This document shows positions 5,061 to 49,027 of a DNA stretch of 64,000 nt, piece by piece. The notes beneath the pieces were generated by a model that worked only from the letters and a program-made list of their open reading frames with translations, had not been told where the DNA came from and searched no databases. Each line of letters opens with the position of its first letter. Position 1 is the stretch's first letter. A program made the translations under genes and the position numbers. The DNA is taken from NCBI RefSeq assembly GCF_004634385.1, contig NZ_CP037895.1, positions 1,339,245 to 1,403,244 of the forward strand. Direction: 5' to 3'. Origin of the DNA: Thermaerobacter sp. FW80. Its GTDB lineage: Bacteria; Bacillota; Sulfobacillia; Thermaerobacterales; Thermaerobacteraceae.

Positions 5061-5250
5061 TTACCTGAAACATCGTCATCTGTTTCAGGCAGCCGATCCT
5101 CACGGATCGGCAGTGCCGGTCTTACCCGACCATGTGCCGGTGCCGGCTTCCCGCTTCCTCCGGGACCGCCTGCCAGGTGGCAGGTCTTCCATCCCGTCCA
5201 CGGGCGTTTAACGTCTCCGGGCCACTCCCGGCGACGGCGGCCACGAGGGC
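5061..5250 (-). ncRNA. Candidate omega RNA (TnpB guide RNA) at element end
   Basis: In IS200/605 and IS607 elements TnpB uses a guide RNA made from the 3' part of tnpB and the element end, with the guide taken from the flank. Here the end downstream of tnpB holds two perfect hairpins: 5064-5072 with 5081-5089 (9 bp, loop 8) and 5092-5099 with 5104-5111 (8 bp, loop 4). Transcription leftward would add CGGTTGGAGGCCATGTTCAT (complement of 5041-5060), protease-gene sequence, as guide. The upstream limit given is a guess; the structure is seen, the function inferred from the family. Confidence 0.4.
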
Positions 5251-34037: not shown

Positions 34038-35042
34038 ATGCCGGTGCCGTGGCGTGCCGGCCCGCTGCGGCGGGCGCCCGTCGTGGCCACCCTCGTCGGA
34101 CTGCTGGCGGCCGCCCTGTGGGCGGGGGTCGTCTCGAGCGGACGGCCCCTCCCGTCGGCCGGCTCCGCCCGCGACCCGGCGGGCTGGGCGTTCCGTGACG
34201 ACCTCGGCCAGCGGGTCCGCCTGCCGGCGCCACCCCGGCGCATCGCCTGTAGCGGCCAGGACTTGTGCGACCTGGCCCGGGCGCTGCTGGGGGAGGGGGC
34301 GGTGACGGAGCTGCCGGCGGGGATGGAGGAGCAGCACCTACGGCGGCGTGCGGCCGATCTGGTGCTGCTGCCCGCCGTCACCCGGCAGCCGGGGTTGGCC
34401 CGGCGGCTGCGGGCCCGGGGCTGGCCGGCGGCGACCCTGGTCTGGACGGACGTGGAGGGACTCCCTGCGGCCGCCCTCCGGCTGGCCGGCTGGGTCAACC
34501 GGCGGGACCGCGGCCAGGAGCTGGCTGCGACCTACGCCCGGCGGCTGGCGCGGATCGAGGCCGCGTTGGCGACCGTGCCGTCGTCCCAGCGGCCGCCGGT
34601 GCTGGTCCTGGCGTGGGATCGTCCTCCCGTCTGGGCGGGCCCGGGCAGCCCGCCGGCGACGCTGCTCGAACGCGCCGGCGGACGGACGGCGTCCGGTCAC
34701 GGGCGCGACCCAACCCCTGCGCGATCCCGCGGCGGCTGGGTCCACCTCCTGCGACGAGGGACCGGGCTCGCCGGCCCCGGGGCGTGGCTGGCTGGCGAGG
34801 AGCGCTGGCGCCGCAGTCACTGGCCGGCATCGACGCGGGTGGTGACGCCCCTGCTCCGCCCCATGGTGCCACCGGGGGGACCGCCGGCGGCGACCGCCCT
34901 CTACCTTCCCCCGGATCAGCTGCTGGGTGCCGGTCCACAGGCGCTCGACGGCCTGGAGCGCCTCGCGGCCTGGCTGCACCCCGACCGCGTGGACGCCGGT
35001 GACGCGCCGCTGCGCATGGTGCCGCTGTCGGTGATGGACTGA
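34038..35042 (+). CDS. Periplasmic-binding-like protein (BtuF/FhuD fold), signal-anchored
   Basis: 334 residues. A signal anchor (VVATLVGLLAAALWAGVVS) is followed by WAFRDDLGQRVRLPAPPRRI, the typical opening of class III ABC substrate-binding proteins for cobalamin, haem and siderophores. The rest keeps the pattern (ADLVLLPAVTRQPGLA, RDRGQELAATYARRLARI, PPVLVLAWDRPPVWAGPGSP) but with few conserved side chains. No permease or ATPase gene is nearby, so it may be an orphan binding protein, or a diverged one with another role. The start at 34038 has a modest GGGGGC site. Convergent with thiN, 7 bases apart. Confidence 0.7.
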   Translation: MPVPWRAGPLRRAPVVATLVGLLAAALWAGVVSSGRPLPSAGSARDPAGWAFRDDLGQRVRLPAPPRRIACSGQDLCDLARALLGEGAVTELPAGMEEQHLRRRAADLVLLPAVTRQPGLARRLRARGWPAATLVWTDVEGLPAAALRLAGWVNRRDRGQELAATYARRLARIEAALATVPSSQRPPVLVLAWDRPPVWAGPGSPPATLLERAGGRTASGHGRDPTPARSRGGWVHLLRRGTGLAGPGAWLAGEERWRRSHWPASTRVVTPLLRPMVPPGGPPAATALYLPPDQLLGAGPQALDGLERLAAWLHPDRVDAGDAPLRMVPLSVMD

Positions 35043-43288: not shown

Positions 43289-44137
43289 GTGTCCCGGCAC
43301 CGCAACCTGCCCCTCTATTCCATCGGCGCCGTGTCGAACCTGACGGGTCTGAGCGAGCGCCGCATCCGCTACTACGAGAAGGCGGGGCTGATCCGGCCGG
43401 CGCGGACGGCGGGCAATCAGCGGCGCTACAGCCAGGCGGACGTCGATCGGCTGCTGGAGATCAAGGGGCTCCTGCAGCAGGGGCTGCATCTGGACGACAT
43501 CCGCCGGCGCCTCCTGGACCGGCGCGGCCGGGAGGAGACCATGGGGCCGCCGGATCTGCCCGCCGCCCTGGCCGCCGCCGAGCCCTGGTCGCTTCCCGTG
43601 CCGGTGGCCGCGACGGTGCGCCGTGCGGCCGGCAGGCGCGCCGTGACGGCGCGGGCCGCCCCCCCGACGGGATGCGGATCCCGTGGCCACGGGGAGGTCG
43701 CCGCCGCGGGCGCCGTCGCGGGCGGCGGGAGGGCGGCCGGAGCCGGGCGACCGGGCGAGGCCACGGCCTCCCCGCCCCGCGCGGCGGCTGCCGTCCCGCC
43801 GCACGCCCGTACGGACTCCGATGCGGGCCCCGAATCGGGGCTGGGTCGCATCGACCGGCTGTTCCGGGGTCCGGCGCCTGCGGTCCCCGGGGTCGGCACG
43901 GCGCGCTGCCTGTACCCGGCCTTGGATCCGGCCGTGCTCTACCAGGCCCGTCGCCGGCAGCGGCGCGGGCCCGGTCAAGCCGGGCAGCCGGCATGGCCCT
44001 CCGGCGAGCCCTCCGGCGGTGGGGGCAGCCTGCGGGAGGTCCGCATGCCGGGCGATGCGCTCAGCCCGGCGCCGCTCGGCGCCGGGCTGAGCGCGGGCGC
44101 ACAGGAGGTACCGCGCGATGCGCCGGCCGCCGGCTGA
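43289..44137 (+). CDS. MerR/GlnR-like regulator
   Basis: 282 residues, GTG start at 43289 after GGGAGGGGG. Residues 8-80 are a MerR winged HTH: YSIGAVSNLTGLSERRIRYY, EKAGLIRPARTAGNQRRYSQ, ADVDRLLEIKGLLQQGLHLD. The spacing and the RRIRYYEKxGLIxPxRTxGNQRxYS sequence resemble GlnR, the Firmicute nitrogen repressor, which also sits just before glnA. GlnR is about 130 residues; here a further 190 residues are Ala/Gly/Pro-rich with no recognisable feedback-inhibition tail. The stop lies inside the next gene (20-base overlap), and a 17-bp inverted repeat is located in its last codons. Nitrogen control is inferred from context. Confidence 0.85.
   Translation: MSRHRNLPLYSIGAVSNLTGLSERRIRYYEKAGLIRPARTAGNQRRYSQADVDRLLEIKGLLQQGLHLDDIRRRLLDRRGREETMGPPDLPAALAAAEPWSLPVPVAATVRRAAGRRAVTARAAPPTGCGSRGHGEVAAAGAVAGGGRAAGAGRPGEATASPPRAAAAVPPHARTDSDAGPESGLGRIDRLFRGPAPAVPGVGTARCLYPALDPAVLYQARRRQRRGPGQAGQPAWPSGEPSGGGGSLREVRMPGDALSPAPLGAGLSAGAQEVPRDAPAAG
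44057..44094 (+). repeat. 17-bp perfect inverted repeat at the regulator-glutamine synthetase junction
   Basis: 44057-44073 pairs with 44078-44094 around GCTC. It ends 11 bases before the AGGAGGT ribosome site of the glutamine synthetase gene (start 44118) and is translated as part of the regulator. It could act as an attenuator or in translational control. Confidence 0.7.
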
Positions 44138-45437
44138 GCCGGTTCCTCCGGACGAACCGGCGCGGCGCCTCCAGGCCCAGGGGGTGCAGCTCGTCCAGCT
44201 GGTCTACGCCGACGTGTTGGGCGTGCACAAGGGGCTGACCCTCCCCGTCCTCCAGGCGGCGGCCGCGTGGGGCGACGGCGTCCGCGTCGACGGCGCCTCC
44301 CTGGAGGGGTTCATGCGGATCGAGGAGCGGGAGATGCGCCTGCGGGCGGGCGGGGAGGCGGTGTTCGTCCTCCCGTGGACGCCGGCGGACGAACGGGTGG
44401 CGGCGGTGCCGGCGGCCATCTACACCCGGGAGGGGCAGCCCTTCGAGGGCTGCCCCCGGGAGCGCCTGCGGCGGGCGGTGGGGCGCCTGGACGGCCTCGG
44501 GGTGGCGGTGGAGTTCGCCTTCGAGATGGAGTTCTACCTGCTGCGGCGGCACCGCGGCCGGCCGGAGGTGCGGGTGCCGGACCGGGCCGGGTACCTGGAC
44601 CTATCCGTGCGGGATGCGGGGGAGCCGGTGCGCCAGGCCGTCGCCCTGGCGCTGGAGCGGATGGGCGTCGTGGTGGAGTCCGTCCACCACGCCGTGGCGC
44701 CCGCCCAGCACGAGATCGACCTGGGCTGGCAGCCGCCCCTGACCGCCGCCGACCACCTCCTGGTCGCCAAGCGGACGGTCTACGCCGTGGCCGAGCGCCA
44801 CGGGATGCACGCCACCTTCCTGCCGAAGCCGCGGACGGGTAGCCACGGCTCCGGGCTGCACGTGCGGATGCGGCTGCGACCCCTGCCGGGGGCGCCGTGG
44901 AGCCGCGCCGCGCTGACCCGCCACTGGTTGGCCGGGCTGCTGCAGCACGCCCGGCCGCTCTGCGCCATCACCAACCCGCTGGTGAACTCGTACAAGCGCC
45001 TGGTGCCGGGGTTCGAGGCCCCGGTGTACGTGGTCTGGGGCCAGGAGACCCACGCCCCGCTGGCACGGCTGGTGGCGGGGTGGGAGGCGGGCGAGCTGGA
45101 GTGGCGCGCCCCCGACCCGTGTTGCCACCCGTACCTGGCGCTGGCCGTCCTGCTGCGGGCCGGCGCCGACGGCCTGGAGCGCCGGCTGGAGCCGCCCCCG
45201 CCGCTGGAGGAGAACGTCTTCGAGCTGGACCCGGCGGAGATCGGCGCCCGGGGGATCGAGCCGCTGCCGGGCAGCCTGGGCGAGGCCCTGGACGACATGC
45301 GCGTCAGCGCCGTGGTGCGGGACGCCTTGGGCGAGTACCTCTTCACCCGCTACCTCGAGGCGAAGCGGATGGAGTGGGACATCTACCGGGTCCAGGTCCA
45401 CCAATGGGAGCTGGACCAGTACCTGCCGGTATTCTGA
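44118..45437 (+). CDS. glnA: Glutamine synthetase, type I, divergent short form
   Basis: 439 residues, ATG at 44118 with AGGAGGT 6 bases upstream. Landmarks: QLVYADVLGVHKGLTLP, VDGASLEGFMRIEEREM, FAFEMEFYLL (metal Glu residues), AQHEIDLGW, HATFLPKPRTGSHGSGLHV, the ATP loop NSYKRLVPGFEAPVYVVWG and APDPCCHPYLALAVLL. The length matches GSI-alpha enzymes of Firmicutes, which lack the adenylylation loop. Differences from typical GlnA: the conserved R-(I/V)-E-x-R near residue 330 reads GELEWR, and the metal-His segment GxHxH reads SGLHVRM. It may be a true glutamine synthetase or a paralogue for another amine. Neighbouring GlnR-like gene supports a role in nitrogen assimilation. Confidence 0.88.
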   Translation: MRRPPAEPVPPDEPARRLQAQGVQLVQLVYADVLGVHKGLTLPVLQAAAAWGDGVRVDGASLEGFMRIEEREMRLRAGGEAVFVLPWTPADERVAAVPAAIYTREGQPFEGCPRERLRRAVGRLDGLGVAVEFAFEMEFYLLRRHRGRPEVRVPDRAGYLDLSVRDAGEPVRQAVALALERMGVVVESVHHAVAPAQHEIDLGWQPPLTAADHLLVAKRTVYAVAERHGMHATFLPKPRTGSHGSGLHVRMRLRPLPGAPWSRAALTRHWLAGLLQHARPLCAITNPLVNSYKRLVPGFEAPVYVVWGQETHAPLARLVAGWEAGELEWRAPDPCCHPYLALAVLLRAGADGLERRLEPPPPLEENVFELDPAEIGARGIEPLPGSLGEALDDMRVSAVVRDALGEYLFTRYLEAKRMEWDIYRVQVHQWELDQYLPVF

Positions 45438-45958: not shown

Positions 45959-46243
45959 TCAACGGCTCCCGGCGCCGGCCCCTTGCCCCTTCGCGCTGGC
46001 TCCGTCCTCGAGCGTCCGCTCGATGGCCTCGCGGTTGCGGCCGAAGCCGCGGAACACCTCGCCGTCGATGACCACCGTGGCCGTGACGCGGCTCTGGTAC
46101 CGGTTGACCAGGCGCTCGTAGGCCTCGGGGTCCTTCCGCACGTCGTAGAGGGTGAAGTCGACACCCCGCTGGCGGAGGAACTCCTCCGCTTGGCGGCAGT
46201 CGGCTCACCCGGGTTGGACGTAGAGCTCGACCCGCTTGGGCAT
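45959..46243 (-). CDS. Glutaredoxin-like protein with in-frame UGA, probable selenoprotein
   Basis: 94 residues if the UGA at 46207-46205 is read as selenocysteine (U). ATG at 46243 follows GGGAGGCG. The sequence is MPKRVELYVQPG-U-ADCRQA then EEFLRQRGVDFTLYDVRKDP, RVTATVVIDGEVFRGFGRN. In glutaredoxins this position is the first cysteine of the CxxC active site (YTTPGCPYC); here it reads U-A-D-C. The frame before and after the UGA is the same, both sides are clearly glutaredoxin, and a hairpin with GU in its apical loop lies 16-33 bases after the UGA. Uxx-type glutaredoxin-like selenoproteins are, to my recollection, a recognised family. Alternatives: a sequencing error for TGC, or a dead gene. 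Role: thiol-selenol redox chemistry in the cytoplasm. Confidence 0.8.
46166..46196 (-). promoter_or_regulatory. SECIS-like hairpin after the UGA codon
   Basis: Counting from the UGA, bases 16-22 (GCGGAGG) pair with 27-33 (CCTCCGC) around AGTT, which puts GU at +24/+25. A lower helix (bases 9-12 with 36-39) closes below a CAA/CA internal loop. Bacterial SECIS elements have a short stem with an exposed GU about 16-30 bases past the UGA. Confidence 0.65.
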
Positions 46244-46750
46244 GGTCTCGCCTCCCTTCGGGGTGGCGCGCGGCCCCCAGCCCCCGCCCCTGTCCACCGG
46301 GGGCTCCAGGCCCAGGATGGGCCTTGCCTTAGGATGGGCCTCGCCGCCCGTTCTCCCCTCCGCCGGTCTGGCGGCTCCTTCTCCCTCACGGAAGGGACTT
46401 CCTTCCCGGGCCGCATCATCCCGCGGACCGGCGCATAGGGTTGTCCCCGCGGGGCCCCGCGGGGGCGGCCCCCGGTCGACCCGAGGGCATCCGGGCCCGT
46501 GAGCCAGCGGGTCGCATCCCCGGCGGCCCGCTCCCCGGGGCCCGGCGACGGTCTTCCCGCGGCCGGGGAGGAGCGGGCCCCGGGGCGCTCCGGCGGCGCG
46601 GCGGCCCGGGCAGGCCGCCGCGCACCGCGCCGCGCCGCCGCCCAGCTGGGTGCACGGGCCCCGACCCAGCCGGGTGCGCGGGCCCCCACCCAGCCGCATG
46701 CACGGGCCCCGACAGCCGCACGCACGGGTCCCCCCAGGGAGGTGTTGGCC
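46244..46750 (+). other. 507-bp leader before the GH2-like gene, with 24-bp repeats
   Basis: No separate gene is supported. At 46643-46735 a 24-bp unit (CAGCCGGGTGCGCGGGCCCC-GACC) is repeated about four times; in the GH2 frame it reads as an 8-residue repeat (GARAPTQP-like), so a longer protein start cannot be excluded. A near repeat of GGATGGGCCTTGCC/GGATGGGCCTCGCC lies at 46315-46345. Confidence 0.55.
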
Positions 46751-49027
46751 GTGGAACCGACGATTCGCGCGCGCCGCGACGCCCCCGGTGGACCGCTTCC
46801 CGGCGCCCGGGCCGAGCGGCGAGGAGCCGTGGGGCAGCGGGTGATCGAATTGGCCGGTCTCTGGGAGGTCGCGCGGCCCGACACGGCGGCACGCCCCCAG
46901 ACCCTCTGGGTCCCGCGGGACCCGCCGTCGCCCCCGGGGACGCCGCCGTCCCCCGTGGTGGTCTACCGGCGCACCGTCCAGGTGGACCCGGCATGGACCG
47001 GCATGGCGGCGCGCCTCGAGTTGGACGGCGCACTGGGACGGGTCCGCGTCCGGCTCAACGACCGCGAGTTCCCGGTCCCCGCGGCGGGGCAGGTGCCGAC
47101 CGCGGTGGACGTGACCGACGCCGTGCGACCGGGGACGAACCAGCTGGAGATCGAGGTCGCGGGGACTGAGAGCCCCGTCGGCTGGGGAGCCTGGGCGCGG
47201 CCCGAGGCCGTCCCGCCGGGTTACCTCCCGCCCGGCTTGACGGGACCGGTGCGGCTTCGGTTCTTCCGCGGCGTCGTGCTGACCGGCCTGTCCTGGTTCC
47301 TGCGCCCGGAGGACGGGACCGTCGCCGCCAGGCCGGAGGCCGCCGCGACCCTGCCGGTGGTGCACGGCTGCGCCCGTATCCGCTACTGGGCGACGGAGCC
47401 GGTGCGCGGCCGCTGCTGGCTGGACCTGACGCCGGAGGGCTTCGCGGCGCCCGGTGTCCGGGTGGCCTGGGAGGTGGAGGCCGCGCCCCCGGGCGGGGCG
47501 TGGGAGGTCTGGTTCTCCCTGCCCTCGCCGCGCCTCTGGACCGTGTGGGAGCGAGGTCGTCCCTGCCTGTATCGCCTGCGTGCGTGGTTCGAACCGGCGC
47601 TCGCGCCGGGATCCGGGGAGGGTTCGCCGGGCGGCGGCCAAGCCCCTTGGGGACTGGCGGCGGAGAGGGCGGGGGTGCCGCCGCGGGCCGTCGCCGAGGA
47701 CGGGCGTCCATGGCCCGAGCTGGAGGCGCTGGTCGGCATCCGCTTCGTCACCCGCGACCCCGAGGCTTGGTTCCTCAACGGGGAGCCCCTGGCGTTCCGC
47801 GGCGCGTGCGTCCTCCCCCTCGCGCCCTGGCCGGGGGCCGTGACCCCACGCCGCGCCCGCGCCTGGGTCCGGCGGGCGCGGGCCCTGGGGCTGAATGCCC
47901 TCCGGGTCTACGCCCATGCCGCCCACCCGGCCCTCTACGAGGCCGCCAGTCGCCTGGGCATCGCCGTGTGGCAGGACCTCCCGCTGGTCGAACCGGTGAC
48001 GCGGGAGGCGACGGCCACGCTGGCCGCCCAGTTGGACGGGTGGGTCGATGCCGTCGGACGGTGGCCGGCGGTCATCGCCTGGGCGGTGGCCCAGGAGCCC
48101 GCCGTGCCGCCGGCGGCGCTGCCGGGGACGCCGACCGGCCGCTCGCGGAGGCGGGTGCCACCGGTGCGACGACCCGAGTGGCCCTGGTCCGCCGAGGGCC
48201 GACGGGTGGGGGAGCTGGCGGGACGGCTGCGCGCCCTGGACCCCGGGCGGCCCGTGCTGGCGCGGGTCGGCGTCCCCTCCTGGACCCGCAGCGGCGGGGA
48301 TGCGCGCCTCTTCCTGCCTGCTGGCACGCCACCCGACCCCGTGGCCATCGAGCGGCGCCTGCGCCTGGTGCCCCACGCGGCCGTGGTCTCGTCGATGGGG
48401 GCGCCCGCGTTCGACCAAACCCGCCAGGCAACATTCGTAAGGTATGCCATGGAGATCCTCCGCCGGCGTCCCCATCCGGCCAGGGGAGGGTTCGTGTACG
48501 CGTTGAACGATGCCCCCGGGGGACCGGCCTTCGGCCTCTACACGGCGGATGGACGGCCGCGCGAGGCCGCCCGGGCCTACCGGCAGGCGTGCTGGCCGGT
48601 GCGCCTCGTGCTGGGCGCCTGGCCGCGGCGCGGCCGGCCCGGTGCGGCGTTGCGTCTGCCGGTGTGGCTCGTGAACGACAGCGGCGAGGCCGTGGCCGGT
48701 CGATGGACGTGGCAACTGGTGGCGGGGTCGCAGGTCCTGGCGGCCGCGACGCGGTCGTGCCAGGCGGGGCCGCTGGAGCGCGTCCCCGTCGGGTGGGTGG
48801 CCGCCCGCTGGCCGCTCGAGGCGGTGCCGCGGCGGGCGGCGGGAGCCGAGGCCGCCGAGGGCGGCGGAGGGGAGGATCCCCTGATCCTGCGGCTCGAGCT
48901 CGACGCCGACCGGTGCCGGTTGCGGGTGGACTACCCTCTGCCCATGGCCCTGCGCAGCCGGGAACCGACGCACGGCCCGGTTCGTCCGAAAGATGGGGAG
49001 GAGGTTCGCCCATCCCTGGGGCCGTGA
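46751..49027 (+). CDS. Glycoside hydrolase family 2-like protein
   Basis: 758 residues from the GTG at 46751 (AGGGAGGT upstream). The domain order of GH2 is visible: a jelly-roll sugar-binding domain (GLWEVARPDTAARPQTLWVP, VVYRRTVQVDPAWTG, ARLELDGALGRVRVRLNDRE, DAVRPGTNQLEIEVAGT), an Ig-like domain, then a TIM barrel (FLNGEPLAFRGACVLPLAPW, ALGLNALRVYAHAAHPALYE, ASRLGIAVWQDLPLVEP, PAVIAWAVAQEPAVPP). In GH2 enzymes the acid/base is the Glu in an NE pair; here the equivalent reads AQE, so activity is plausible but the Asn is replaced. A barrel-end catalytic nucleophile was not identified. No signal peptide is seen. It precedes the GT2 gene with 148 bases between. Confidence 0.78.
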   Translation: MEPTIRARRDAPGGPLPGARAERRGAVGQRVIELAGLWEVARPDTAARPQTLWVPRDPPSPPGTPPSPVVVYRRTVQVDPAWTGMAARLELDGALGRVRVRLNDREFPVPAAGQVPTAVDVTDAVRPGTNQLEIEVAGTESPVGWGAWARPEAVPPGYLPPGLTGPVRLRFFRGVVLTGLSWFLRPEDGTVAARPEAAATLPVVHGCARIRYWATEPVRGRCWLDLTPEGFAAPGVRVAWEVEAAPPGGAWEVWFSLPSPRLWTVWERGRPCLYRLRAWFEPALAPGSGEGSPGGGQAPWGLAAERAGVPPRAVAEDGRPWPELEALVGIRFVTRDPEAWFLNGEPLAFRGACVLPLAPWPGAVTPRRARAWVRRARALGLNALRVYAHAAHPALYEAASRLGIAVWQDLPLVEPVTREATATLAAQLDGWVDAVGRWPAVIAWAVAQEPAVPPAALPGTPTGRSRRRVPPVRRPEWPWSAEGRRVGELAGRLRALDPGRPVLARVGVPSWTRSGGDARLFLPAGTPPDPVAIERRLRLVPHAAVVSSMGAPAFDQTRQATFVRYAMEILRRRPHPARGGFVYALNDAPGGPAFGLYTADGRPREAARAYRQACWPVRLVLGAWPRRGRPGAALRLPVWLVNDSGEAVAGRWTWQLVAGSQVLAAATRSCQAGPLERVPVGWVAARWPLEAVPRRAAGAEAAEGGGGEDPLILRLELDADRCRLRVDYPLPMALRSREPTHGPVRPKDGEEVRPSLGP

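Follow-up and report, generated by a model that had tools for sequence, protein, structure and literature searches.

Glutaredoxins use a CxxC active site, and the locus considered here raises the question of how a glutaredoxin gene with an in-frame TGA at the first of these cysteines should be read: as a selenoprotein gene, or as a gene that is broken or misreported. The locus lies in a window of 64,000 nucleotides, the whole stretch of Thermaerobacter sp. FW80 DNA that was analysed, and its features are collected in Table 1. With TGA taken as selenocysteine (Sec, U), the frame translates as MPKRVELYVQPG-U-ADCRQAEEFL...GAGSR, followed by a terminal TGA. A sequence-only reading had claimed one continuous glutaredoxin frame through the internal TGA, and this is confirmed by a PF00462 match that spans residues 5–63 and crosses the TGA with 46.8 bits (Pfam gathering threshold, 22.9); its placement of the TGA at the first Cys of the CxxC motif is likewise upheld by the alignment of homologues (U13-A-D-C16). 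The GC content at codon positions 1/2/3 is similar on either side of the TGA (0.75/0.33/0.92 before and 0.74/0.48/0.94 after) and resembles that of adjacent genes. The sequence-only reading had further expected that gene calling would miss the gene or cut it to 61 residues. The truncated call is borne out, at close to the stated length: the standard-code (table 11) list of open reading frames holds just a 60-aa fragment after the TGA, starting at an internal GTG. The gene is probably missing from the annotation produced by standard pipelines.

Table 1. Features of the selenoglutaredoxin locus, in window coordinates.
Feature	Position	Strand	Details
Glutamine-synthetase-family gene, convergent; syntenic neighbour	44118..45437	+	PF00120, 316 bits
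Predicted selenoglutaredoxin gene	45959..46243	-	94 residues, Sec13 and Cys16 (UxxC), ATG start
Ala55 codon, at the usual thioredoxin-fold cis-proline position	46079..46081	-	alignment A3
SECIS-like hairpin, 7 bp and AGUU loop	46172..46189	-	+16 to +33 after UGA; dG -12.8 kcal/mol
In-frame UGA, putative selenocysteine codon (Sec13)	46205..46207	-	TGA also in G001 and G002 (same genus), TGC in G004 (another genus of the family)
Shine-Dalgarno-like AAGGGAGG	46251..46258	-	7 nt upstream of ATG, read from sequence
Divergent neighbour, weakly glycosyl hydrolase family 2 (GH2)-like	46499..49027	+	PF02837, 27.1 bits (cut-off 28)

A search of the genome (3.04 Mb, 98.8% complete) for selA, selB, selD and tRNA-Sec, which the sequence-only reading had put forward as a check, recovered all four. 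SelB is a full frame of 730 aa (363 bits with TIGR00475, whose cut-off is 242) with a C-terminal winged helix (E 4e-20), SelA and SelD match TIGR00474 (538 bits) and TIGR00476 (397 bits), respectively, and the tRNA-Sec, with anticodon UCA, scores 83.9 bits in Rfam and is also called by ARAGORN. The SelD gene has an in-frame TGA of its own at the active site (GKGG-U-GCK), and a SelD with a single in-frame TGA is also encoded in G001, G002, G003, G004 and G006. Given the established knowledge of this pathway, the presence of SelA, SelB, a TGA-bearing SelD and tRNA-Sec implies that the organism decodes UGA as Sec. A search for FdhA as a further selenoprotein came up empty, since the top formate dehydrogenase-like match scores below the cut-off and contains no in-frame stop; the Sec trait may therefore rest here on SelD, the glutaredoxin and other unlisted selenoproteins. 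The sole formate dehydrogenase-like match of the genome is locus L052 (G000:C1:2631698-2633569). Elsewhere in the window, the Rfam Transposase-2 RNA family (RF03015) matches positions 5088-5157 of the minus strand with 70.8 bits, and ARAGORN calls a third tRNA-Leu (gag) at 34483-34574 of the plus strand, a call that is absent from the Rfam tRNA matches at the gathering score and is probably spurious.

The sequence-only reading had also pointed to a hairpin 16–33 bases after the TGA with GU exposed in the loop. Such a hairpin is present (GCGGAGG-AGUU-CCUCCGC). Published rules for bacterial SECIS elements call for an apical loop of 3–9 nt, a stem of 4–16 bp, a G in loop positions 1–2, a loop 16–37 nt from the UGA and a minimum free energy of -7.5 kcal/mol or below (PMC13188914), and the hairpin lies within every one of these limits, with 22 nt between UGA and loop. 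Taken alone, nevertheless, it is marginally above chance expectation for GC-rich DNA: an equally stable 18-nt hairpin arises in 3.6% of synonymous shuffles (p about 0.04), and rule-permitted 7-bp stems are seen at ~19% of codons when neighbouring genes are scanned, and 38% of the synonymous shuffles also contain one. The hairpin was accordingly rejected as sole proof of Sec, long stems being common in such DNA and only its stability unusual.

Comparison across genomes is more informative about the hairpin. An identical one is found in G001 and G002, that is, in all three members of the genus with the Sec form, and most Sec homologues of the class carry an equivalent. By the same hairpin rule, equivalents were recovered in five distant Sec forms, namely G054 (GCGAAGG-AGUU-CCUUCGC) and G007, G048, G029 and G060 (GCGAARGA-GUU-UCUUUCGC), where both arms are altered and pairing is preserved; this rule yielded no convincing simple hairpin in four other distant U forms (G013, G038, G037 and G012). 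Comparable hairpins were not found in the Cys forms, except for a near-threshold one in G022 (-7.6), and in the TGC-bearing orthologue of G004 the long stem is gone. Median stability is -8.5 kcal/mol in U forms versus -2.2 kcal/mol in C forms (Mann-Whitney p 0.002, from phylogenetically related sequences and hence not independent observations). The SECIS-like hairpin, together with the dedicated Sec machinery that includes tRNA-Sec UCA, argues against readthrough of the UGA as Cys or another amino acid. A shortened protein made by restarting within the gene would find its start at the downstream GTG that opens the 60-aa frame, but the structural model predicts that this product would include neither the first strand nor the active site. 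Neither non-Sec readthrough nor a restart is thus at all probable.

The UGA is shared with close relatives. The orthologues in G001 (69% identity) and G002 (72% identity) carry TGA at the same codon, whereas the syntenic orthologue in G004 (retrieved as L045, MAG ZC4RG37) has TGC. In all three genomes the same glutamine-synthetase-like gene adjoins the glutaredoxin and the same glycosyltransferase lies near it; the GH2-like gene is also nearby in G001 and G004, and its homologue occupies the same place in G001, G003 and G004. G004 retains SelA and SelB; loss of the Sec trait therefore does not explain its Cys form. In G003, another member of the genus (L057, G003:C1:478800-486500), the neighbours are intact but the glutaredoxin is gone, and inspection of this locus revealed no obvious remnant of it, a pattern that we read as a clean loss of the gene; SelA, SelB and the TGA-bearing SelD are kept despite this absence. 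Replacement of a genuine TGC or TGT by a sequencing or assembly error would require just one base change, and Cys is indeed what G004 encodes. Such an error is nonetheless very unlikely, to the point of being negligible, since G001 and G002 independently have TGA at this codon; TGA also recurs in the class.

Both forms of the protein are intermixed over the class, and with the TGC of the syntenic G004 orthologue this is the alternation of U and C among homologues that had been predicted from the sequence. Counting the present genome, 14 genomes of the class have TGA in the glutaredoxin column, and SelB is encoded in 14/14; 16 other class genomes have a match, and all five of those without SelB carry Cys. 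The association between SelB and the TGA or Cys state has a Fisher p of 0.045, which is indicative only, the class genomes being related. The further class loci with TGA in this column are L031, L033, L038, L040, L042, L043, L020, L021, L028, L035 and L039, and the motifs of further TGA-bearing glutaredoxins vary (UGSC, UPYC, UHAC, UHEC, UPHC, UQAC and UGAC).

This distribution bears on the possibility that the gene is a pseudogene, its TGA being a plain nonsense mutation that leaves a protein of just 12 residues, as a literal table 11 reading of the frame would have it. A nonsense mutation does not account for a TGA that three genomes of the genus share at the identical codon, precisely at the catalytic Cys, or for its recurrence in the same column in other class members, all of which have SelB. 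Moreover, the frame after the TGA is open, and with pairwise dN/dS of about 0.25-0.56 downstream of the TGA it is under purifying selection; the nine codons preceding the TGA offer very few sites for such an estimate. We therefore consider a pseudogene highly improbable.

Selenocysteine-containing glutaredoxins are a known class, to which the window protein, as predicted, adds a member. The UxxC glutaredoxin (PF00462) is a listed selenoprotein family (PMC13188914), and by 2006 Sec glutaredoxins were known from Geobacter, Alkaliphilus and Moorella (PMC1794560); a limited literature search returned no paper on a Sec glutaredoxin in the present lineage and none usefully linking Thermaerobacter with selenoproteins. 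In Clostridium (Alkaliphilus) oremlandii, Grx1 carries U13 and C16, and a U13C/C16S mutant of it has been described (PMC4479559); it is reported to be the reductant of a selenoprotein MsrA, a methionine sulfoxide reductase (Kim 2011, via PMC4479559). The window protein shares with this Grx1 the small glutaredoxin fold and a UxxC motif at the identical residue numbers. The AlphaFold2 model (mean pLDDT 87.7) shows the element order of a glutaredoxin, with the active site predicted at the start of helix 1 as in the Trx/Grx fold, and its best Foldseek matches are Trx/Grx-like proteins, cGrx1 among them. The latter structure (7c10, 'Dithiol cGrx1'), which we take from the name in its title to be C. 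oremlandii Grx1, superimposes on the model with TMt 0.92 and rmsd 1.1 at 32% identity. The closest solved structure is Bacillus thioredoxin-like BC3987 (3zij; 43% identity, TMt 0.93, rmsd 0.8), which, however, is titled as an ordinary thioredoxin-like protein and bears no selenoprotein label.

Assignment to a narrower family is not supported by profile scores. The Uxx-star glutaredoxin-like family (NF041212) is likewise glutaredoxin-like with Sec at the first active-site position, but the window protein scores 45.4 bits against its cut-off of 66, and 24-29 bits against UXX-star families 1-3, far below their cut-offs. The best NCBIfam match, nearly full length, is YruB (TIGR02196), yet its 67 bits fall under the curated cut-off of 88.55. 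Usual YruB-family members carry Cys and cis-proline. Because the Uxx-star and YruB cut-offs are not reached, the protein is classed, on its profile matches, as a Sec glutaredoxin in PF00462 and in no narrower family.

The lineage differs from C. oremlandii Grx1 and from its own class homologues at one conspicuous position. Alignment A3 has Ala at position 55 in four family members and Pro in 17/17 other class homologues; VTATVVI precedes the third strand in the four, and the cis-proline expected before this strand is thus missing from the window glutaredoxin. Cis-proline is frequent in the thioredoxin fold (PMC2757866) and is not a required criterion. The replacement is common to the U and C forms of the family and is, therefore, independent of Sec. 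Some thioredoxin-fold proteins can bind Fe-S clusters once the cis-proline is lost, according to passages that cite Su (2007) in PMC2757866 and PMC8161271, and for this reason one may conceive of a family-specific selenoglutaredoxin in which Sec13 and Cys16 would coordinate a metal or an Fe-S centre or, alternatively, serve a specialised substrate, rather than general disulfide reduction. By analogy with those proteins such a role is conceivable, but we regard it as unlikely.

The explanation that we favour, with a probability of roughly 95%, is that the product of the gene is a glutaredoxin/YruB-like selenoprotein of 94 residues, whose UGA would be decoded as Sec through SelB and the hairpin to form a U13-x-x-C16 redox pair; the active-site UGA is almost certainly read as selenocysteine. 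The sequence-only reading is thus upheld in what it observed and supported in how it interpreted it. The case is built on sequence: the frame with the UGA at its active site, the complete Sec machinery, the hairpin, the U/C pair and the conservation of the UGA among orthologues. As we infer the insertion of Sec into the window glutaredoxin, SelB with Sec-tRNA-Sec would decode the UGA, guided by the hairpin. For its redox activity and substrate, Sec13 is the presumed attacking residue in the reduction of disulfides or related oxidised thiols, and the selenylsulfide would be resolved by Cys16; its electron donor would likewise be a matter of inference, and a thioredoxin reductase is encoded in the genome.

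Collectively, these observations describe a clear Sec/Cys pair in which sister genera differ although each retains the Sec machinery. At a single syntenic locus, three genomes have TGA, one has TGC and one has lost the gene, which makes this locus a small natural experiment on Sec/Cys exchange, and the absence of the cis-proline is a testable biochemical oddity of these glutaredoxins.
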